Source: Amycolatopsis solani (lineage in GTDB: Bacteria > Actinomycetota > Actinomycetes > Mycobacteriales > Pseudonocardiaceae). Taken from it: a DNA stretch of 64,000 nucleotides. Positions 3,262-23,213 of the stretch are shown one piece after another. The notes under the pieces are model-generated. The model was not told the DNA's origin. It saw only the letters and a list, made by a program, of their open reading frames with translations, and did not search any database. Numbering within the stretch: the stretch's first letter is position 1; each line of letters starts with the position of its first letter. A program made the translations under genes and the position numbers. Where the stretch lies: NCBI RefSeq assembly GCF_033441515.1, contig NZ_JAWQJT010000003.1, positions 1,364,001 to 1,428,000 of the forward strand, written 5' to 3'.

Positions 3262-3495
3262 CTCGACCGCCTTTCGCCCGGGGGTCCCGGTCTACCCGGC
3301 GGATCTCAGAATTTCGGCAGAAGATCCCACGGCCGGCGTTGACGAGCGTGCGATCATCGGACAGCGGCTGAGCAGCTACACCGCACCCCCGGCGTCGCGC
3401 CGGGCTCTCGATCGCGCCCCCGAATCCCCGCCGGGCAGCCCCTATCGGTCCTCTGTGGGTAGAAGTGCCGTCACTGCGACCGGCAGTTGTGCCGT

Positions 3496-3523
3496 TTGAC
3501 CGCACTGGCCTCTTTTCTAGCGT
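3496..3523 (+). promoter_or_regulatory. Candidate promoter of the ESX module
   Basis: TTGACC at 3496 and TAGCGT at 3518 are separated by 16 bases and lie about 65 bases before the first WXG100-like gene. The gap 3262-3587 holds no gene. A strong ribosome binding site, AAGGAGG, is at 3571-3577. Confidence 0.6.
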
Positions 3524-3587
3524 GACTTTCACACCGCGCGGACCACCGCGCCAGGGGTATTCGCTTCAGGAAGGAGGTGGCCCGTCC

Positions 3588-3932
3588 ATGTCCAGTCCGG
3601 GATTCCAGGCAGATTCCGCTGCCATGACGCGCGCCGTCCAGGGTTTCGAGGAAACCGCGACGAACGCCAAGTCCACGATGGCCAGCTTGGAGTCCGAGCT
3701 GACCGAGGCGCTGCGCAACTACAAGGGTGACCAGGCCGTGGCGTTCTGGGACCTCCAGCGGCGGCTGCAGGAGAAGATGACCGTGGCCGTGAAGGAGCTC
3801 GACACCATGTCGCAGCTCGTCCACACCAGCCACCAGAACTACGGCCGCGGCGACGCCGACGTCCACCAGAGCTTCCAGGGGGTCGGCAACTCCCTCGAGG
3901 GCTCGGGCGTGATCCCCCGCCTCAACCCCTGA
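3588..3932 (+). CDS. WXG100-like ESX substrate (EsxB-type partner)
   Basis: This 114-residue all-helical protein probably forms the secreted partner of a type VII (ESX) heterodimer. The turn normally occupied by WXG reads Y45-K-G47, so the tryptophan is replaced by tyrosine. The C-terminal secretion motif YxxxD/E is present as Y85-GRG-D89. In known WXG100 pairs only one partner carries that motif, which makes this the EsxB-like subunit. The ATG at 3588 is chosen because AAGGAGG lies 10 bases upstream; the frame stays open further left without support. The second WXG100 gene follows after 18 bases. Confidence 0.8.
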   Translation: MSSPGFQADSAAMTRAVQGFEETATNAKSTMASLESELTEALRNYKGDQAVAFWDLQRRLQEKMTVAVKELDTMSQLVHTSHQNYGRGDADVHQSFQGVGNSLEGSGVIPRLNP

Positions 3933-3950: not shown

Positions 3951-4253
3951 ATGGCCGACGTCGTCGAAATCAATTTCGCCGCGCTGCAGCACAGCTCGGC
4001 ATCCCTGGCCGCCAAGGCCAAGGCGCTCACCTCGCAGCTGGAGCAGCTGCACCAGAACCTCCAGCCGATCACCGCGACCTGGTACGCCTCCGGCAGCTCC
4101 GCCGGTGACGCGGCCCGCCAGTCGGAGACCCGGCTGCGTCAGGCCACCGCGGACATCGTCGCGATCATCGCGCAGTTCGGCGGCAAGGTCGGCGAGGCCC
4201 ACGACCTCCAGCAGTCGCTGGAGAACCGCAACCAGGGGCTGTTCGCGGGCTGA
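3951..4253 (+). CDS. WXG100 family protein (EsxA-type partner)
   Basis: This 100-residue helical hairpin protein has the usual WXG100 length. The turn motif is slightly irregular (W44-YASG rather than W-x-G). It lacks a YxxxD/E tail, as expected of the EsxA-like partner of the protein encoded just upstream. The gene starts 18 bases after its partner's stop with a GAGAGGA ribosome binding site. An intercistronic hairpin follows, so the pair may be produced in excess over the downstream genes. No EccC ATPase or other ESX core gene is in the window. Confidence 0.85.
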   Translation: MADVVEINFAALQHSSASLAAKAKALTSQLEQLHQNLQPITATWYASGSSAGDAARQSETRLRQATADIVAIIAQFGGKVGEAHDLQQSLENRNQGLFAG

Positions 4254-4355: not shown

Positions 4356-4742
4356 ATGCCAGACCAGTCGTACTACGTCCACCTGGAATCGCTGAAGGAC
4401 TTCGTGCGGGAGCTGGAAACCCAGATCCACGCGATGTCGAAACCGAACGACTTCCTGCTCACCCTCGGCGCGGAGCCGCTGTTGTTCGGCGAGTTCGGCG
4501 AAGCCGGGTCGCTGGCCGACGCGCACCGCGCCGCCGTCTCGGAGATGCAGGGCCTGCTCGACCAGGTCCGCAGCGCGATCGGCTTCGCGCAGGACGTGAC
4601 CACCACGGTCGCCGACGGTTACCAGAACGCCGACCAGGCCGTGGCCGGGGACCTGCACCACTCCGGTGCCGTCACCAACCTCCTCGACCCGGTGCTCGGG
4701 CTGCTGGGCCTCGGTGACTCCGACGGGAGCCGCAAGGGATGA
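4356..4742 (+). CDS. Helical protein of the ESX module, function unknown
   Basis: A 128-residue protein with mostly amphipathic helices (LESLKDFVRELETQIHAM, then DAHRAAVSEMQGLLDQVRSA). It has no signal peptide or membrane segment. The size, helical pattern and position between a WXG100 pair and a PPE-like gene suggest a WXG100-superfamily protein or a chaperone-like partner for the PPE-like product. No WXG motif is visible, so this is inferred from context. The stop overlaps the next start codon (ATGA), indicating translational coupling with the PPE-like gene and joint production. Confidence 0.7.
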   Translation: MPDQSYYVHLESLKDFVRELETQIHAMSKPNDFLLTLGAEPLLFGEFGEAGSLADAHRAAVSEMQGLLDQVRSAIGFAQDVTTTVADGYQNADQAVAGDLHHSGAVTNLLDPVLGLLGLGDSDGSRKG

Positions 4743-6037
4743 CGAAGAACACCGCGCACACGAACTTCGCCGCGTACAGCCACCAGCAGCTCTACGCGAT
4801 GCTCCAGGCCGGCGACCCGAACAGCGCGCGCCACGCCGCCGACAAGTGGAAGTCCGCCGCGCTGCACCTGCACGAGCAGGCCCACAACCTCAACTCGGAA
4901 CTGACCGAGTTCAAGGACCAGTGGACCGGTGGCGCCGCCGACCAGTACCAGCACATGATCGTCGACCTCGCGAACGGCATCTCCAAGGTGGCGCAGACCG
5001 CCGAGGCGATGAACGTGATGCTCGGCGACGCCGCCGACGCGCTGGTGAAGGCCAAGAAGGAGATGCCGCCGCCGGTTTCGGTGCCGGACGTCTCCCCCGC
5101 CGACGTCGCGCTCGCGGTGAACCCGCCGCTGCTGCCGCCGGACTCCTCGCCCGCCGTCGTGCAGGCCGCGGCGCAGCAGCGCCAGCAGGCCATCGCGAAC
5201 GTCGAGGCCCAGCAGTCCGCGGCCAACGCGGCCGGGTCGGCGCACGGCCGGGCGATCGTCGTCATGACCGAACTGGCCGGGGAGTACACGGTGGCCGAGG
5301 AGTCGATCCCGGCGTCGCCGAACGCCGTCCCGGTGCCCGCGACCCCGCCCTCCGGTGGCGGTGCGGGCAGCGCGGGTTCGCCCGGGCTCGTCGGCAACGG
5401 CGTCACCGAGCCTGGCGTCGTGGTCACCCCCGGCGACGGGCACCCGCTGCCCTCGACCGGCACGCCGCAGCCGGGCACGACCGTGCCGACGTCGAACCCG
5501 CTGTTCGGCGACATGTTCACCGCCGGGCTCGCCGCGGCCTCGGCCGCCGCGTTCGGCCGGTTCGGCTCGATCATGCCGAAGGTGCCGTCGTGGGCCACCG
5601 GCAAGGACCCGAAGGACAACAAGGAAGAGCCGCCCGGAACCAAGCTCGGCGGCGGCGGCGCGGGCGTCGAAGGCGGCGCCGGGGGCGGCATCCCGATCGG
5701 CGGGGGTGACGCGCCGTCGATCGGCGGCGGCATCCCCGGCGGGGCGGGCATCGGCGGCGGCGCCGACGCCCCGGCCGCGCACTCCGGCCTGGCCGGCGAC
5801 GGCGGCGCGAGCAACGCGTTCAGCGGTCTCGCGGGCGGCGCGGCCGGTGCCGTCGGCGCGGCGGCGGCCAAGAGCGCGATGCCGATGATGCCCATGATGC
5901 CGATGGGCATGGGCGGTGGCGGCGACATGGGCTCCGGACGGCGGATCCCGGCGTGGCTGGTGGAGACGGAGAACGTCTGGGGCCAGTCGGCCCCGGTCGC
6001 CCCGCCGGTCATCGGCGAAGAGCCCGAAGCGTACTGA
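4739..6037 (+). CDS. PPE-like type VII secretion substrate, Gly-rich C-terminus
   Basis: The 432-residue protein has an N-terminal helical domain of about 175 residues with W62-T-G64 at the expected helix-turn-helix. A Pro-rich linker follows, then a low-complexity Gly/Ala stretch (residues about 295-400, repeats such as GGGIPGGAG and MPMMPMMPM). A short conserved-looking tail contains RRIPAWLVETENVWG. This layout matches non-mycobacterial PPE-type ESX substrates, in which the helical head is exported and the Gly-rich part acts outside the cell. It is coupled to the gene before it by a four-base overlap, and a long palindrome follows the stop. Confidence 0.8.
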   Translation: MTKNTAHTNFAAYSHQQLYAMLQAGDPNSARHAADKWKSAALHLHEQAHNLNSELTEFKDQWTGGAADQYQHMIVDLANGISKVAQTAEAMNVMLGDAADALVKAKKEMPPPVSVPDVSPADVALAVNPPLLPPDSSPAVVQAAAQQRQQAIANVEAQQSAANAAGSAHGRAIVVMTELAGEYTVAEESIPASPNAVPVPATPPSGGGAGSAGSPGLVGNGVTEPGVVVTPGDGHPLPSTGTPQPGTTVPTSNPLFGDMFTAGLAAASAAAFGRFGSIMPKVPSWATGKDPKDNKEEPPGTKLGGGGAGVEGGAGGGIPIGGGDAPSIGGGIPGGAGIGGGADAPAAHSGLAGDGGASNAFSGLAGGAAGAVGAAAAKSAMPMMPMMPMGMGGGGDMGSGRRIPAWLVETENVWGQSAPVAPPVIGEEPEAY

Positions 6038-6113: not shown

Positions 6114-7454
6114 GTGACGGCTGCCGGCTATCGCGTCGCCCCGGCCCGCCTCGACACCGTGGCCGGCGAAACCGGCCAGCGGGCCGACGCACTGCACACC
6201 GCGGAGACCGCGGTCTCCGGTGAGAAGGTCCCGGCCGCGGCGTTCGGCCAGGTCGAGGAAGCCAAGGCCGCGGCGAAGACGTTCGAGAAGACCATGAAGG
6301 AGCTGGGCGGGAAGCTCGAATCGGGCGTGTCCCGGCTCCGCAGCATCCAAAGTGGACTTACCGAGTCGGCGGCCGGCTACCGCCGCGTCGACGCGCAGAT
6401 CGCCGCGATGTACCGGGCCCTGCTGCCCGAGGATCCCTTGCCCAAGGCGGGAAACCCGGCCGGGATCGGCGGTTCCGCCGACACCGGCGCGTGGGCGCAC
6501 GCGATCGAGGAGAACCGCGCGAAGGTCGCCGACGCGCTGACGGCCGAGCGCGGCAAGCTCGCCGGGCTGACCGACGCCGACGAGATCGCGCGGTCGCGGG
6601 CGCGGATCAAGCTGTACGAAGACATCCTCGCGAACAACCGGCAGATCCTGAAGTTCGACCCGTCCGGCAACGGCCGGATCGCCGAGCTGGTCGGGCACGT
6701 CGAGCCCGGGACGCGGAACGTCGGGCTGTTCGTCCCCGGCGTCAACACGCAGATGTCCAACTTCGACGCCTACGCCGGCCTCGGGCGCAGCCTGGTCGCC
6801 GCGGACCCGACCGGGCGCACCGCGATGGTCGTCTGGGCCGACGGGGTGTTCCCGCAGAACCCGGTCGTGCAGGGCCCGGACGCGAGCTACGCGCAGACGA
6901 TGGCCCCCGACCTCAAGCACTTCACCGACGACCTGCGCGGCGAGATCTCCAGCCACGCCGGCGACGGCGTCACGCTGACCGCGATCGGGCACAGCTACGG
7001 CGGCGCCACGGTCGGCCTGGCCGAGACGCACGGCCTCGACGTCGACCGCGTCCTGCACGTCGAGTCGGCGGGCATGGGCCACGGCGTGTGGTCGCCGTCG
7101 GACCTGCCGGCGAGCCAGGCGGGCGTGCAGCGCTACTCGATGACGGCGCCGCTCGACCCGATCGAGATCGCCCAGGGCAACGCGTGGGGCCTGGAGTGGA
7201 CCGGCATCGGCCACGGCGCCGACCCGGACACCTTCCCCGGCGTCACCGAGCTGGAGACCGGCCGTTCCGCGGACGGCTCGCAGTTGTGGGGCCTGTCCTC
7301 GCACAGTGACGTGCTGAAGCCCGGTTCGGAGTCGTGGACGAACATCTACCGGGTGATCACCACCGGACCGGTGACCCCGGACGGCACCTTCGACCCGCGT
7401 GGCATCCTCGAACACGGCGTCGAGTTCCTGAACGACGGGGGTGTGCTGCGATGA
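6114..7454 (+). CDS. ESX-type N-terminal domain fused to DUF1023 alpha/beta hydrolase
   Basis: A 446-residue protein. Residues 1-110 are helical and resemble ESX substrate heads. From about residue 195 there is a DUF1023 alpha/beta-hydrolase domain with the nucleophile elbow GHSYGG (Ser294). The GTG at 6114 follows ACGGAGG at a good distance. Proteins of this build are commonly found beside actinobacterial WXG100 and PPE genes and may be exported, but their substrates are unknown. There is no signal peptide. The stop overlaps the start of the small gene behind it (ATGA), as in many effector-partner gene pairs. Lipase, esterase or toxin activity are all possible. Confidence 0.8.
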   Translation: MTAAGYRVAPARLDTVAGETGQRADALHTAETAVSGEKVPAAAFGQVEEAKAAAKTFEKTMKELGGKLESGVSRLRSIQSGLTESAAGYRRVDAQIAAMYRALLPEDPLPKAGNPAGIGGSADTGAWAHAIEENRAKVADALTAERGKLAGLTDADEIARSRARIKLYEDILANNRQILKFDPSGNGRIAELVGHVEPGTRNVGLFVPGVNTQMSNFDAYAGLGRSLVAADPTGRTAMVVWADGVFPQNPVVQGPDASYAQTMAPDLKHFTDDLRGEISSHAGDGVTLTAIGHSYGGATVGLAETHGLDVDRVLHVESAGMGHGVWSPSDLPASQAGVQRYSMTAPLDPIEIAQGNAWGLEWTGIGHGADPDTFPGVTELETGRSADGSQLWGLSSHSDVLKPGSESWTNIYRVITTGPVTPDGTFDPRGILEHGVEFLNDGGVLR

Positions 7455-7825: not shown

Positions 7826-8356
7826 TCACCACGGTGTCCCGCCCATGCTCGCGGGCCCGCTGTCGACGACGATCAGCTTGTCCCCCAGGAACTCGTCCAC
7901 GTCGGGGCTCAGCCACGACTCACCGCGCCGGGCACGGTGAAACCTGAATGTGCCGTTGGTGCTGTTCGCTCCCACGATGCACCGCACCGCGACAGACCCG
8001 GGCAGCGCACGGACGAGCCGCACGACTTCCAGGGCGAAGCCCCACCCGTGACGCAGCATCACCACTTGGGCCGCCGCACTGATCACCGGCTCGTCCGCCA
8101 GCGATCCGACCTCGATGGGCACCACATCGTCCAGGTGGAAGCTGCTCGTGGCGCACTCCCACGCGGTCAGATCCGGTCCGCCCGAGCGGGGCGCCCGGAC
8201 GTGGGCGGCGTGCCGGGCAAAGGCCAATGCCGGGCCGTGCCGGACGATGCCTTCGGCAACCAGCTCGCGTAGTCCCGGTGCCAGCTCCGCCGCCGGCACC
8301 GCGCACGACGGCCCCAGAGCTTTGATGGCCACCTCGTTCATCCGGATGGTGAGCAC
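7826..8356 (-). CDS. Hypothetical protein, function unknown
   Basis: A 176-residue protein that I do not recognise. It contains one Trp-rich patch (DLTAWECATSSFHLDD) and a predicted alpha/beta core, with no signal peptide or membrane segment. The GTG start at 8356 is tentative; an in-frame ATG 18 bases downstream would begin at MNEVAIKALG. Its stop lies six bases from the stop of the small ESX-linked gene on the other strand. It is followed upstream on the same strand by the inactive mycosin gene, 42 bases away, so the two could form an operon. Confidence 0.55.
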   Translation of the reverse strand: MLTIRMNEVAIKALGPSCAVPAAELAPGLRELVAEGIVRHGPALAFARHAAHVRAPRSGGPDLTAWECATSSFHLDDVVPIEVGSLADEPVISAAAQVVMLRHGWGFALEVVRLVRALPGSVAVRCIVGANSTNGTFRFHRARRGESWLSPDVDEFLGDKLIVVDSGPASMGGTPW

Positions 8357-8398: not shown

Positions 8399-9559
8399 CT
8401 ACGGCGTGAAGCGCGACGGCCGCCAACCGCGGTGCCGGGCACGCCGGACCGCCGCCACCGCCACGCCCGCCGCGGCGGCCAGTGCCACTCCCGCCAGTGC
8501 GATCGTGCCCGCCGGGACGTCCGCCGGCTGCTGGGCCGGGGCCGCCGCCGGGACGACGTCGGGCTCCGGGGCCGCCGGGGCGACGGAGCCGGGGGCAGCG
8601 ATGCCCGCGGGCAGCGTCGACGAGACCGCCGCGTACGCGTCCAGCACGCCCCAGCCGAGGCGCGGGTCGTGGCCGCCCGAAGCCGGGCGGTGGGCCGTCA
8701 GCGTGAGGCGGGTGGCGACCTGGTCGCCGGTCAGGTCCGGGTGGTACGCCCGCACCAGCGCCGCGACCCCCGCGACGTACGCCGCAGCCAGTCCCGGGTC
8801 GGTGACCGGAAAGCGGTGCGCGATCGCGCCGCCCGCGCCGGCCGACGTGCTGACCAGCTCCGCGCCCGGTGCGGCGACGCCGACGTAGTCCCCCGCCTCG
8901 GTCTGCACCGGCTCGCCCGCCTGGTTCACCGAACCGACCGCCAGCACCCCGGCCGTCGCCGTCGGGTACGTGCGTGCGCCCTGCTGGGTCGCCGACGCCG
9001 CCGAGACGACCACCGCGCCCTCCGACCGCGCGCGGGACACCGCGCCCGAGAGCGCCGGGCTGTCGAACGCCGCCGGGACGGCGATCAGGATGACGCCCGC
9101 GTGCCGGTCGAGCGCCGTGTCGATCGCGCCGGCCAGCGCGCCCGGGTCGCCGCCGTCGCGCGAAGAGCTGTCCGTGTAGCGGATCGGCAGCAGGCGCGCG
9201 CCCGGCGCGACGCCGGCGAACGTCGTGGACGGATCCGGTTGCGCGGCGACGATCCCCGCCGCGATCGTGCCGCGGCCGTCGCAGTCGGTCTGCTCGGTCC
9301 CCGCGCCGCCTTCGAGCTGGCCGGGCCGGAACTGGCCGTTCTGCCCGTCGACGCCGGTGCCGATCACGGCGACCAGCTGGCCGTCACCCCGCGTCAACGG
9401 CCACAGCCGCGCCGGGTCGACTTGGCGCTGCCCCCACGGGACGGCGCCGGAATACGTGCCGGACGGGTTCGCGCACTGCGCTTCCGGGGCCGCGGCCGCC
9501 GTCACGGGCAAGCCGGCCGTCACCAGGCCCGCCACCGCGAGCGCCGCCGCTATCCGCAC
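8399..9559 (-). CDS. Catalytically inactive mycosin-like (MycP) subtilase
   Basis: A 386-residue protein with the mycosin layout: signal peptide, S8 domain (residues about 40-310), Pro/Ala-rich linker, and a C-terminal membrane helix with a basic tail (AGTIALAGVALAAAAGVAVA). MycP anchors and stabilises ESX complexes and trims substrates. Here every active-site position is changed. The Asp of DTG reads VIGTGVD (Gly), the His of DxHGT reads DCDGRGT (Arg), the oxyanion Asn region reads SAASAT, and the GTS serine region reads TDPGLAAAYVAG. The fold-defining segments are well kept, so it is not a decayed gene. A structural role in an ESX apparatus is the likeliest function. Confidence 0.85.
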   Translation of the reverse strand: MRIAAALAVAGLVTAGLPVTAAAAPEAQCANPSGTYSGAVPWGQRQVDPARLWPLTRGDGQLVAVIGTGVDGQNGQFRPGQLEGGAGTEQTDCDGRGTIAAGIVAAQPDPSTTFAGVAPGARLLPIRYTDSSSRDGGDPGALAGAIDTALDRHAGVILIAVPAAFDSPALSGAVSRARSEGAVVVSAASATQQGARTYPTATAGVLAVGSVNQAGEPVQTEAGDYVGVAAPGAELVSTSAGAGGAIAHRFPVTDPGLAAAYVAGVAALVRAYHPDLTGDQVATRLTLTAHRPASGGHDPRLGWGVLDAYAAVSSTLPAGIAAPGSVAPAAPEPDVVPAAAPAQQPADVPAGTIALAGVALAAAAGVAVAAVRRARHRGWRPSRFTP

Positions 9560-18592: not shown

Positions 18593-20764
18593 TCAGGCTC
18601 CCGTCACCGCCGCTCCGGCCGGGCGGAACGTGCGCTCGGCCGCGTCGAACAGGTGGACCTGCGCCGTCCCGACCGCGAAGTACATGCCGGTCAGCTGCAG
18701 CTTCCCGGCCGCCTCGGCCGCGGCCACCGACGGGTACTCGCGCAGGTGCTCCAGCTGCTGGAGCACGTTGTGCAGGGCCAGCCGGTCACCCTTCCGCTCC
18801 GGGACCGCGCCCTCCAGCGTGGCCGAACCCAGCCGGTGCGCGCTCGGCTCCGCGTGGCGGAGCCAGACCGACAGCGGTCCCGGCGGCGGGCCGTCGGCCA
18901 GCGCCGCCATCGCGCCGCAGCCCGAGTGGCCGCACACCACGATCTCCTCGACTCCGAGCACGCCGACGGCGTACTCGATGGACGCGTTCATCGACGGGTC
19001 CGCCTGCCCGGGCGGGACGAGGTTGCCGATGTTGCGGATGGTGAACAGGTCGCCGGGGCCGCTGGTGGTGATCAGGTTGGGCACGATCCGGGAGTCGCCG
19101 CAGGTGATGAACAGCGTGCGCGGCCGCTGGCCGTCGGCGAGCCCGGACAGCGTGTCCTTGAGCAGCGGCGCGGCGCGGCGGTGGAACTCGGTGGCACCGT
19201 TGCGGGTCTGCTGCGTGGGGATGCCTTCGGTGGCCTGCCACGCCGACCAGGGCGCGAGCCAGCGCGGCACCGCCCGGCTCGCGTGCAGCCGGGACCGCGT
19301 CGGGCGGCCCGCCTTGCCTTCGCCGAACCACGGGTGGCCGACCTCGTCGACCTCGACCGTGCCGCCGGCGCGCTCGTGGGCCTGCTGCCAGGTGGTGAGG
19401 CTCTCGAACGCGGCGTGGTCGAGGTAGTCGACGACGAGCTCGAGCCGCACCGGGACGCCGGCCGGGATGGTCCCGAGCACCTTCGACAGCCGCGGCACGG
19501 ACAGGAACGTCAGGACGCCTTCGACGACGACGCGCCAGGCGTCCCCTTCGCGCTCGACGTGAATCCCCGACCAGAGCGTGCGGCGCAGCATCAGCACGAG
19601 CGCCAGCCCGATGCCCGCGAGCACGCCGGTGAGCAGGTCGAACACCACGACGCCGGCGAGGGTGAGCAGGTAGACGGGCAGGTCGCCGTGGGCGAGGACG
19701 GTCTTGATGTGGCCCGGGTTGACCAGCTTCGCGCCGACGTGCACCAGCAGGCCGGCCAGCGCGGCCAGGGGGATGCTCTGGATCAGCCCGGCGAGCAGGA
19801 CGACGAACAGCAGCACCCAGACGCCGTGCAGCACCGCCGACGCGCGGGTCTTCGCCCCGGCGGCGACGTTGGTGGAACTGCGGACGATGACGCCGGTGAC
19901 CGGCAGGCCGCCCAGCGCGCCGGAGAGCATGTTGGCCGCGCCCTGGCCGACCAGTTCCCGGTCGAGGTTGGCGCGCCGCCCGGTGTGCATCTTGTCCACC
20001 GCCACGGCCGAAAGCAGGCTTTCGACGCTGGCGATCAGGGCGATGGTGACGACGGCGAGCGCAAATCCGCCCCAGCCGCCGTCGGGCAGCTGCGGGACGA
20101 GCTGGATGTCCAGCAGGTCACCGGGCAGCTCGACGCGCGGCAGCGTCATCCCGAGCAGGACCGACAGGCCGGTGGCGGCGGCGATCGCGGCGAGCGGTCC
20201 CGGCACCTTCCGGACGGCGGACGGCAGCTTCGGCCAGACGAGCAGGATGGCGATGGTGAGCAGGCCGATCACGGCGGCTGAGTCGTGGTGGGCGACGATC
20301 TGGCCGGGCAGCTCGGCGATGTTCTCCACCGCCGAGCTCTGCGCCTTGCCGCCGAGGACGACGTGGAGCTGACCCAGCACGATCGTGACGCCGATGCCGG
20401 CCAGCATGCCGTGCACGATCGCCGGCGAGATGGCCAGCGCGGCGCGCGCGATGCGGCTCAGCCCCAGCAGGATCTGGCAGGCGCCGGCGGCGACGGTGAT
20501 CGCGCAGGTGACGACCCACCCGAACGTCTGGATGGTTTCGGCCATGACGACGGTCAGGCCGGCGGCGGGCCCGCTCACTTGCAGCGCGGAGCCGCCCAGC
20601 GCCCCGGCGACGACGCCACCGACGACGGCGGCGACGAGCCCGGCGGCGACCGGCGCGCCCGAAGCGAGGGCGATGCCCAGGGACAGGGGTACTGCGACGA
20701 GGAAGACGACCAGTGAGGCCGGCAGGTCGTGGCGGAGCACGGCGAGGGGTCTCATGATCACCAT
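18593..20764 (-). CDS. SulP anion transporter fused to beta-carbonic anhydrase (paralogue 1)
   Basis: A 723-residue inner-membrane fusion. Residues 1-385 form the SulP transporter core (about 12-14 membrane segments, SGPAAGLTVV signature). A STAS domain follows at about 395-480, and a beta-carbonic anhydrase at about 520-720. Zinc and catalytic residues are intact: C555, D557 and R559 (CGDSR), H613 and C616 (HSGCG). It is Rv3273-like. Such fusions are proposed to import bicarbonate or sulfate and interconvert CO2 and bicarbonate. Both an ATG at 20764 and one at 20755 are possible; neither has a clear ribosome site. A paralogue lies directly upstream. Confidence 0.9.
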   Translation of the reverse strand: MVIMRPLAVLRHDLPASLVVFLVAVPLSLGIALASGAPVAAGLVAAVVGGVVAGALGGSALQVSGPAAGLTVVMAETIQTFGWVVTCAITVAAGACQILLGLSRIARAALAISPAIVHGMLAGIGVTIVLGQLHVVLGGKAQSSAVENIAELPGQIVAHHDSAAVIGLLTIAILLVWPKLPSAVRKVPGPLAAIAAATGLSVLLGMTLPRVELPGDLLDIQLVPQLPDGGWGGFALAVVTIALIASVESLLSAVAVDKMHTGRRANLDRELVGQGAANMLSGALGGLPVTGVIVRSSTNVAAGAKTRASAVLHGVWVLLFVVLLAGLIQSIPLAALAGLLVHVGAKLVNPGHIKTVLAHGDLPVYLLTLAGVVVFDLLTGVLAGIGLALVLMLRRTLWSGIHVEREGDAWRVVVEGVLTFLSVPRLSKVLGTIPAGVPVRLELVVDYLDHAAFESLTTWQQAHERAGGTVEVDEVGHPWFGEGKAGRPTRSRLHASRAVPRWLAPWSAWQATEGIPTQQTRNGATEFHRRAAPLLKDTLSGLADGQRPRTLFITCGDSRIVPNLITTSGPGDLFTIRNIGNLVPPGQADPSMNASIEYAVGVLGVEEIVVCGHSGCGAMAALADGPPPGPLSVWLRHAEPSAHRLGSATLEGAVPERKGDRLALHNVLQQLEHLREYPSVAAAEAAGKLQLTGMYFAVGTAQVHLFDAAERTFRPAGAAVTGA

Positions 20765-20981: not shown

Positions 20982-23213
20982 TCAGTGCTCCACAGCGCCG
21001 GCCGGGACGAAGCCGCGAGCCGCATCGTCCAAAAGGGACACCTGCGCGGCGCCGACGTCGAAGTACATGCCGGTGAGCCGGAGCGCGCCGCGCTCGAGCG
21101 CGGCCGCCACCACCGGGTACGCACGCAGGATCTCCAGCTGCTGCACCACGTTCTGCAGCGCGAGCTGGTCGGCCTCGGCGGCCGGCCGCTCGCCGCCGAG
21201 CAGCACCGGCGCTTCGCGGGCGCGGCGCCGGAGCGTCGCTTCGCCGTGGCGGAGCCAGCTGCCGAGCTGCTCGAGCCCGTCCGGGGCCCGGCCGAGCAAC
21301 GCCTTCATCGCGCCGCAGCCGGAGTGCCCGCACACCACGATCTCGGCCACGCCCAGGACGCCGACCGCGTACTCGATCGCGGCGCCGACCGAGGAGTCGT
21401 CGCCGTCCGGCGGCGGCACCAGGTTGCCGATGTTCCGGACCGTGAACAGGTCGCCCGGCCCGCTGGTGGTGATCAGGTTGGGCACGATCCGCGCGTCGCC
21501 GCAGGTGATGAATAGCGTGTGCGGCTGCTGGCCGTGCGCCAGCCCGCTCCACGTGTCCCGCAGCAGTGGCGCGGTGCGGCGCTGGAACTCCGACGCGCCG
21601 CGGCAGAGCAGCGAGCTCGCCGTGCGCTGGGCGGGGAGCACGACGTGCTCGGCCTGCCACTGCGACCACGGCGCGAGCCACCGCGGCACCACGCGCGCGG
21701 CGACGCTGCGGCGCACGGTCGGCTCGCCCGAACTCCCGCGTTCGAACCACGGGTGCCCGATCTCGTCGACCGTCACCGGCCCGGCGTGCGCCTGCTGCCA
21801 GCCGCGCAGGCAGTCGAACGCGGCGTGGTCGAGGTAGTCGACGAGCAGTTCGAGGGTGACCTCGGCGTGCGGCGGCACCCCGGCGAGCACGCGGGTCAGC
21901 CGCGGCACGGACAGGAACGTCAGTGCGCCTTCGATGACGACGCGGTGGCGCTCGCCTTCCCGCTCGACGTGGATGCCGGAGAAGATCATCCGCCGCAGCA
22001 TCAGCGCGAGCGCGAGCAGGACGCCCGCGGCGACACCGGTGAGCAGGTTGACGGCCACCGCGCCGGCGAGCGTGACGACGTACACCGGCAGGTCGCCGTG
22101 CCGCCGGACTTCCTTGAGCCCGTGGACGTTCACGAGCTTCATCCCGACGTACACGAGCAGGGCGGCGAGGGCGGCCAGCGGAATAAGCCGCAGCACGCCG
22201 GTCAGCAACAGGCAGGCGGCGAGGATCCAGACGCAGTGCAGGATCGCCGACAGCCGCGTGCGCGCGCCGGCCTCGTAGTTGGTCATGCTGCGCACGATGA
22301 CGCCGGTGACCGGGAACCCGCCGAGCGCGCCGGCCGCGACGTTCGCCGCGCCCTGCCCGATGAGCTCGCGGTCGAGGTCGGTGCGCGGGCCGCCGCGGAG
22401 CTTGTCGACCGAAACGGCGGACAGCAGGCTTTCCAGGCCGGCGATGAGCGCGATGGTGAGCGCGGCGAGGGCGAACCCGCCCCAGCCGCCGTCCGGCAGC
22501 CGCGGCACGATGTGCAACTCGGGCAGCCCGGCCGGGAGGTCGACGCGCGGCAGCGACATGCCGGTCAGCACGGACAGCCCGGTGGCCAGCGCGACGGCGG
22601 CCAGCGGCGCGGGCACGCGGCGGACGGTTTTCGGCAGCCGCGGCCAGGCGATCAGCACGGCGAGGGTGACGACCCCGATCAGCACGGCCTGGTCGTGGTG
22701 CGCGGCGATCTGCCGCGGCAGCGCGACGACGTTGGCGAGCGCGGAACCCTGCGCCGAGCCGCCGAGCACGACGTGCAGCTGCCCGAGCACGAGCGTGACC
22801 CCGATGCCGGCGAGCAGCCCGTGCACGATGGCAGGCGAAACGGCGAGCGCGGCCCGGGCGGCCCTGGTCAGCCCGAAGAGGATTTGGAGCAGCCCGGCGG
22901 CGACGGTGATCGCGCAGGTGACGGGCCAGCCGTGGGTGGCGATCGTGTCGGCCAGCACCACGGTGAGCGCGGCGGAGGGCCCGCTGACTTGCAGCGGCGA
23001 CCCGCCGAAGAGGCTCGCGACCAGCCCGCCGACGACGGCGGAGATGAGGCCGGAGAGCAGCGGTGCCCCGGCGGCGAAGGCCACACCGAGGGACAGGGGG
23101 ACGGCGACGAGGAAGACGACTATCGACGCGAGGAGGTCGTGCTTGAGGTTCTCCGGAAGACGGGGCTGCTTCGGCGGGCCGGTGTCGTGTTCACCACGAA
23201 CGATCTCGATCAT
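20982..23213 (-). CDS. SulP anion transporter fused to beta-carbonic anhydrase (paralogue 2)
   Basis: A 743-residue paralogue of the gene next to it, with the same order of domains: SulP core (SGPSAALTVV), STAS, then beta-carbonic anhydrase with C571, D573, R575, H630 and C633 intact. The two proteins are similar along their whole length, so this is a tandem duplication, followed by clear divergence in the linker (residues about 500-545). It has its own terminator and an upstream motif shared with its paralogue, so the two can be expressed separately. The transported anion cannot be read from sequence; bicarbonate is suggested by the fusion. Confidence 0.9.
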   Translation of the reverse strand: MIEIVRGEHDTGPPKQPRLPENLKHDLLASIVVFLVAVPLSLGVAFAAGAPLLSGLISAVVGGLVASLFGGSPLQVSGPSAALTVVLADTIATHGWPVTCAITVAAGLLQILFGLTRAARAALAVSPAIVHGLLAGIGVTLVLGQLHVVLGGSAQGSALANVVALPRQIAAHHDQAVLIGVVTLAVLIAWPRLPKTVRRVPAPLAAVALATGLSVLTGMSLPRVDLPAGLPELHIVPRLPDGGWGGFALAALTIALIAGLESLLSAVSVDKLRGGPRTDLDRELIGQGAANVAAGALGGFPVTGVIVRSMTNYEAGARTRLSAILHCVWILAACLLLTGVLRLIPLAALAALLVYVGMKLVNVHGLKEVRRHGDLPVYVVTLAGAVAVNLLTGVAAGVLLALALMLRRMIFSGIHVEREGERHRVVIEGALTFLSVPRLTRVLAGVPPHAEVTLELLVDYLDHAAFDCLRGWQQAHAGPVTVDEIGHPWFERGSSGEPTVRRSVAARVVPRWLAPWSQWQAEHVVLPAQRTASSLLCRGASEFQRRTAPLLRDTWSGLAHGQQPHTLFITCGDARIVPNLITTSGPGDLFTVRNIGNLVPPPDGDDSSVGAAIEYAVGVLGVAEIVVCGHSGCGAMKALLGRAPDGLEQLGSWLRHGEATLRRRAREAPVLLGGERPAAEADQLALQNVVQQLEILRAYPVVAAALERGALRLTGMYFDVGAAQVSLLDDAARGFVPAGAVEH

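Follow-up and report, generated by a model that had tools for sequence, protein, structure and literature searches.

Can the mycosin (MycP) of an ESX (type VII) secretion locus be kept by selection when its catalytic residues have been replaced? This question is raised by a gene in a window of 64,000 nucleotides from Amycolatopsis solani (GCF_033441515.1, contig NZ_JAWQJT010000003.1, positions 1,364,001-1,428,000 of the forward strand). The gene lies at 8399..9559 on the minus strand; coordinates are window positions unless a locus or contig handle precedes them. It begins with a GTG start codon and encodes a protein of 386 amino acids, here called the pseudomycosin, that was characterized from its open reading frame (ORF), from Pfam and NCBIfam models and by structure prediction. 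By descent and position this protein is a mycosin, but not an active one. It is probably the pseudoenzyme MycP subunit of a dedicated accessory ESX system, with a structural rather than a cutting function.

A subtilase fold is predicted for the pseudomycosin from the Pfam match and from structure prediction and comparison. Residues 58-304 match Peptidase_S8 with an E-value of 2.3e-19, and the NCBIfam model T7SS_mycosin (TIGR03921) scores 244.2 bits, which is under its curated cut-off of 278.75. Relative to MycP1 (PDB 4M1Z, 4KB5, 4J94), MycP3 (4KG7) and intact relatives, all four catalytic positions are replaced (all on the minus strand): the catalytic Asp by Gly67 (9359..9361), the His by Arg96 (9272..9274), the oxyanion Asn by Ala190 (8990..8992) and the Ser by Gly256 (8792..8794). 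The respective codons, read by eye on the DNA, are ggc, cgc, gcg and gga. The Ser motif reads DPG, compared with GTS in intact mycosins. The initial annotation, made from the sequence alone, had described a kept mycosin fold with its flanking motifs, a triad reading Gly, Arg and Gly, and a missing oxyanion Asn; the matches, alignments and codons agree with it on each of these points. The DCDG motif contains the invariant Cys93 (9281..9283), the likely partner of Cys29 (9473..9475), which is conserved in at least 90% of the sequences. Both align with cysteines of MycP1 (MycP1 only), located in the N-terminal extension and in the DCD motif, and the disulfide is putative. A signal peptide and a C-terminal helix had been proposed as well. 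The helix (residues 348-376, 8432..8518) is predicted, it probably spans the membrane to judge by eye from its hydrophobic sequence, and it is followed by a conserved R-rich tail, RGWRPxRF. The signal-peptide-like N terminus (residues 1-24, 9488..9559) was likewise judged by eye from the translation.

The altered site is a property of a whole clade. An orthologue was found in 71 of the 80 same-genus (Amycolatopsis) genomes, the window genome included, with E-values below 1e-120, and the pseudomycosin is present in 22 of 150 family genomes from 8 of the 46 sampled genera. Thin samples of the order and the class (171 and 196 genomes) yielded no further clade member outside the family; in the order sample the family members scoring as clade were all same-genus, which leaves the score gap uncalibrated for distant members. 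Residues were read at 57 genome loci, of which 42 belong to the 71 same-genus orthologues (37 + 5) and 15 to other genera, and in the best 120 of 667 database homologues. All 57 loci are devoid of the catalytic Asp (Gly or Ala instead) and of the His (Arg in 56, Gln in L080), and none carries an intact triad. Among the 120 homologues, the His column is Arg without exception, the Asp column is Gly in 117 and Ala in 3, the Asn column is Ala in 96, Gly in 22 and Ser in 2, and the Ser column is Gly in 79, Ser in 33, Thr in 5 and Val in 3. Within the clade, Asp, His and Asn are changed in everything that was read, and Ser often, not always. The loss of all four residues, as originally claimed, applies to the window protein and does not extend to the clade, given the 33 homologues that keep the Ser. 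The Ser column of L085 is misaligned and its Ser was not used; L057, a decayed copy in genome G022, was left out of the orthologue count, and nothing can be read from its Asn and Ser columns.

The changes extend beyond the catalytic residues. Asn158, Ser160, Gly254, Thr255 and Pro260, which show 95% conservation or more among 36 intact relatives and which, from subtilisin, we take to line the catalytic site, are also changed in the pseudomycosin, and a comparison of 33 clade members with the same intact set shows them lost in the clade. Conversely, Asp94, Arg96, Ala100, Pro162, Glu221, Leu235, Pro255 and Ala260 are found in 94-100% of the clade and are rare in the intact set.

The pseudomycosin belongs to a complete ESX system, which the initial annotation had not covered. 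On contig C3 of the window genome, 24-38 kb before the pseudomycosin, genes for EccB, EccE, EccD, WXG100 proteins and a full EccC are encoded, and no other mycosin match lies near the pseudomycosin. EccE (PF11203) is located at L047:11354-12526 and scores 78.6 bits. In the window genome, about 19 kb separate EccC from the small WXG or PPE-like genes, compared with 0.5-3.3 kb in relatives. The parts of the locus lie compactly in 20 relatives, which represent seven genera including Amycolatopsis, with some rearrangement between genera. The pseudomycosin, EccC, EccD, a YbaB-like gene and a PPE-like gene are found in all 20 of the respective 20-kb stretches, EccE in 13 (searched with a model derived from five loci, of which four belong to the 20) and EccB in 11, several stretches ending before it; nadC lies beside the locus in five, all Amycolatopsis. 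Each of the 20 stretches yielded a single mycosin, and a second, intact mycosin hidden in the same locus was therefore rejected. The idea of a stray secreted subtilase unrelated to secretion is ruled out by the synteny of the locus.

The only mycosin of the window genome above the NCBIfam cut-off (317.7 bits) belongs to an ESX-4-type system, a separate locus on contig C1 with its own EccB, EccC and EccD. It is encoded beside rpoA, rplQ and truA, presumably the usual ESX-4 neighborhood. A match to this mycosin is present in all 80 same-genus genomes (E of 2e-108 or better; split over two frames in G060), and the triad is intact in 30 of the 30 genomes in which it was read.

The presence of the pseudomycosin follows that of its locus. 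With C3-type EccD defined as more than 170 bits and an identity of 67% or more, 69 of the 80 genus genomes have both C3-type EccD and the pseudomycosin, two (G038 and G055) have the pseudomycosin alone and nine have neither. Of the 150 family genomes, 22 carry the pseudomycosin and 21 carry C3-type EccD, all 21 being shared; the extra genome, G090, is 74% complete. EccC and WXG genes are found in G038, whose contig stops short of EccD. In the two genomes that lost most or all of the locus, the pseudomycosin is truncated or decayed. Of the locus, the 40 kb read of G055, which is counted among the 71, retain only EccB, the response regulator and a pseudomycosin shortened at its N terminus. None of the locus genes was found in the 20 kb read of G022 (one of the nine, not counted), where a decayed fragment of the pseudomycosin lies between an AMP-binding gene and nadC. 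These relics of a lost ESX locus (L241:14093-14437 and L237/L238) are found at the same place beside nadC.

Purifying selection acts on the pseudomycosin: its ratio of nonsynonymous to synonymous substitution rates (dN/dS) is about 0.24, with medians of 0.237-0.262. The median against 32 orthologues is 0.240 (Nei-Gojobori), and the pairwise median is 0.262 with a range of 0.112-0.397 (556 of 561 pairs, dS 0.1-1). In 25 genomes with both genes, the value is 0.237 for the pseudomycosin versus 0.328 for the intact ESX-4-type mycosin, a comparison that is not strict in that the latter takes in a long linker. None of the 71 same-genus matches contains an internal stop. A single internal TGA was flagged in L077, L080, L081 and L085, where the matches, judged from their coordinates, overrun the terminal stop. 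The recurrence of the same changes together with the low dN/dS supports the original suggestion of selection for a role that would be non-proteolytic.

Among the mycosins of this family, the triad was changed repeatedly, a second point absent from the initial annotation. In a tree of 91 mycosins, obtained by a quick search with the triad sites left out and no bootstrap, the focal clade groups together (33 rows, Shimodaira-Hasegawa-like approximate likelihood ratio test support of 100) and, with the tree rooted on the ESX-4-type mycosin, sits among intact mycosins. The pseudomycosin descends from intact mycosins. With altered defined as a change of Asp, His or Ser, four parsimony changes between intact and altered triads occur over the tree, and at least two of them are forced by well supported branches. 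This count itself gives no direction; we read the change as loss, given the intact triads of the ESX-4-type outgroup and of subtilases in general. EccB, EccC and EccD are present in 15 of 15 stretches (about 20 kb) of other altered lineages, one of which contains two altered mycosins. The model built on the focal loci found EccE in none of the 15, which argues only weakly for its absence. Of the 35 loci read outside the family (16 + 19), 32 are intact and three are altered. In each of the latter (L198, L200 and L247, three genomes of one other family), two mycosin genes lie in tandem, and His and Ser are altered in both.

The other altered mycosins of the family are L144, L064, L146, L149 and L160; L131 and L133; L135 and L141; L143, L148 and L150; L145 and L151; L154; and L055 and L155. 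Their sites read, for example, Gly/Ile/Asp/Ala, Asp/Arg/Val/Glu or Asp/His/Val/Glu in the order Asp/His/Asn/Ser. Like the 15 stretches above, which come from this list, L064 lies in an EccB/EccC/EccD locus, and the 14-kb stretch of L055 contains EccC only. Tandem altered pairs are located at L166:8274-10706, L198:23-2583, L200:32-2601 and L247; in the pairs from the other family, His is replaced by Ser or Thr in one copy and by Arg in the other.

The proposed role is modeled on mycobacterial work. Mycobacterial secretion requires MycP but continues when the active site of MycP1 or MycP5 is mutated (PMC5082899; commentary PMC5156307), and in the ESX-5 structure a MycP5 trimer caps and stabilizes the EccB5 ring with the active sites facing the chamber (PMC8131196). 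By analogy, the pseudomycosin would be exported, then anchored by its predicted C-terminal helix, and would most likely cap and hold the EccB ring outside the membrane, cutting nothing. MycP5 of ESX-5 (PDB 7NP7/7NPS) matches it in sequence and structure, and also has a subtilase domain, a C-terminal transmembrane helix and a locus with EccB, EccC, EccD and EccE. In contrast to the pseudomycosin, its predicted active site is retained and it comprises 585 residues. The engineered protease-dead MycP1 and MycP5 (van Winden 2016, PMC5082899) share with the proposed state that no catalysis is expected and the structural role is kept. They are, however, laboratory point mutants, whereas the pseudomycosin represents a natural, clade-wide state with further changes of the catalytic site. 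The initial annotation had proposed a pseudoenzyme that stabilizes the ESX complex. Residues and locus agree with this proposal, and its structural part is carried over from mycobacteria.

That MycP catalysis is dispensable is known from engineered mutants; a natural pseudomycosin was not found in the papers searched. Among the papers listed by searches of the open-licence PubMed Central literature none came up, and 'mycosin' and 'pseudoprotease' co-occur in no paper there. In the accessible parts of the sources, the one Amycolatopsis paper found to contain type VII genes enters mycP as an S8 peptidase and leaves its activity uncommented (PMC11004387); the word 'catalytic' does not occur in a survey of ESX evolution, which counts one to four copies of ESX-4 in non-mycolic-acid actinobacteria (PMC4791881); and a review of type VII variants contains neither 'catalytic' nor 'inactive' (PMC11217815). 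Comparable bacterial pseudoproteases, with a signaling or partner-binding role, are CspC and CspA of Clostridioides. They differ by acting in spore germination and by their unrelated locus, and any homology beyond the fold is putative. We take CspC and CspA to be subtilase-like. The mycobacterial debate on the need for MycP without its protease rests on engineered mutants, and natural ESX loci of soil actinobacteria now supply a counterpart: complete loci whose only detected mycosin is devoid of catalytic residues, kept by selection and lost with the locus where loss was seen. This suggests that MycP can act as a scaffold instead of scissors, and in such a system, which comes from a harmless organism, the structural function could be studied apart from the proteolytic one. 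A label of S8 serine peptidase or mycosin assigned automatically is no reliable guide to activity in these loci.

Some points weigh against a purely structural subunit. Secretion, complex formation and the lack of proteolysis are what we infer for this system. The association of pseudomycosin and C3-type EccD (Fisher p = 2.4e-10 in the genus and 9.8e-25 in the family) is not corrected for phylogeny, scoring in the genome searches was confined to the top first-look candidates of each genome, and EccD of G054 is split over two frames. The neighboring nadC is more constrained, with a median dN/dS of 0.131 versus 0.240. Two tryptophans of EccB5 that lie in its interface with MycP5 according to the ESX-5 structure align with Tyr and Gly in EccB of the C3 locus; this comparison says little about MycP binding, because the ESX-4-type EccB of the window genome seems to lack them too (EccB3 alignment). 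Finally, the residues conserved in the clade only (Asp94, Arg96, Pro162, Glu221 and others) suggest a remodeled site, maybe with a function beyond scaffolding. Such residues and the near-invariant Arg96 would allow for binding or gating as an additional role. A neofunctionalized pseudoprotease, in which a cleft rebuilt around the Arg binds a peptide, a substrate or EccB and gates or senses secretion besides or instead of scaffolding, is possible, though clearly the less probable reading. Arg96 in all 120 of the homologues read and in all genome loci except L080 speaks for it, as do 23 columns with a residue that the clade conserves to 90% or more and that intact relatives rarely have; several of these columns adjoin the former catalytic positions (one of the 23 lies before the assigned start). 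On the other hand, the conserved cleft residues may serve only folding without the triad, the cleft has no known ligand, and the other altered lineages carry different replacements. Similarly tentative is a broader proposal in which catalysis was lost repeatedly, an ancient remodeled site centered on the Arg took on a new role in the window lineage, such as gating of the EccB chamber or substrate binding, and a whole class of ESX machines has a non-cutting cap.

The structural MycP subunit remains preferred over readings in which proteolysis persists or the gene is dying. A mixed complex, in which the active ESX-4-type mycosin of the same genome does the cutting, is improbable: that mycosin is indeed present throughout the genus with an intact triad wherever it was read, but its system is encoded elsewhere with a separate set of EccB, EccC and EccD, and the nine genomes devoid of the pseudomycosin have it too (at match level). 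Even less credit can be given to a protease with a non-canonical catalytic site. The nucleophile Ser retained in 33 of the 120 homologues would fit, but every sequence read has Arg or, once, Gln in place of His, Gly or Ala in place of Asp, and Ala, Gly or Ser in place of Asn, and the GTS motif is mostly lost. A decaying pseudogene is hardly credible at all. The truncated or decayed copies of G055 and G022 and the dN/dS above that of nadC point in this direction, but these copies sit in genomes with most or all of the ESX locus lost. The intact reading frames of the same-genus matches, the low dN/dS, the near-invariant Arg96 and the distribution of the clade over several genera argue for a maintained gene, and the pseudogene was rejected in the absence of internal stops, frameshifts or relaxed selection. 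Of the two observations that would have spoken against the initial annotation, orthologues with an intact triad were not encountered among the loci read, and decay was seen in these two genomes only.

Next to the pseudomycosin, the window contains further genes of the ESX locus, all on the plus strand. A WXG100 protein (3588..3932; PF06013, 33.5 bits; start chosen by eye within ORF 3465-3932) is found in 16 of the 20 relatives' stretches, and a WXG100-like protein (3951..4253; 27.1 bits, cut-off 27.3) in 18. They are followed by a conserved protein of 128 amino acids without Pfam match (4356..4742; 19 of 20) and a WXG100/PPE-like protein, a candidate substrate (4739..6037; 20 of 20). The membership of an Abhydrolase_8 protein with a weakly WXG100-like N terminus (6114..7454, plus strand) is unsure; a clear match lies beside the locus in G038, and partial matches only were found in 3 of the 20 stretches. 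A protein of 176 amino acids without Pfam match, encoded directly downstream of the pseudomycosin (7826..8356, minus strand), was found in none of the 20 stretches and is probably not part of the locus. Besides the two ESX loci, the window genome contains a short EccB fragment of 60 positions (G000:C4:190336-190515).

The stretch that splits the locus, just before the window, encodes two large ALF-repeat proteins (L048:5433-9152 and L048:9582-13556, both minus strand). One has a pretoxin HINT domain, and both resemble secreted proteins of the polymorphic-toxin type. A NarL/LuxR-type response regulator is located beside EccB (L047:9211-9918, minus strand) and occurs in 15 of the 20 relatives' stretches. 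Between EccE and EccD of the window genome, a gene with weak AAA similarity (L047:12534-14066, minus strand) shows a lower GC content at third codon positions (0.73). Further into the window, two neighboring, similar ORFs of 723 and 743 amino acids (18593-20764 and 20982-23213, minus strand) resemble, by eye, sulfate-transporter/carbonic-anhydrase fusions and represent a possible tandem duplication.
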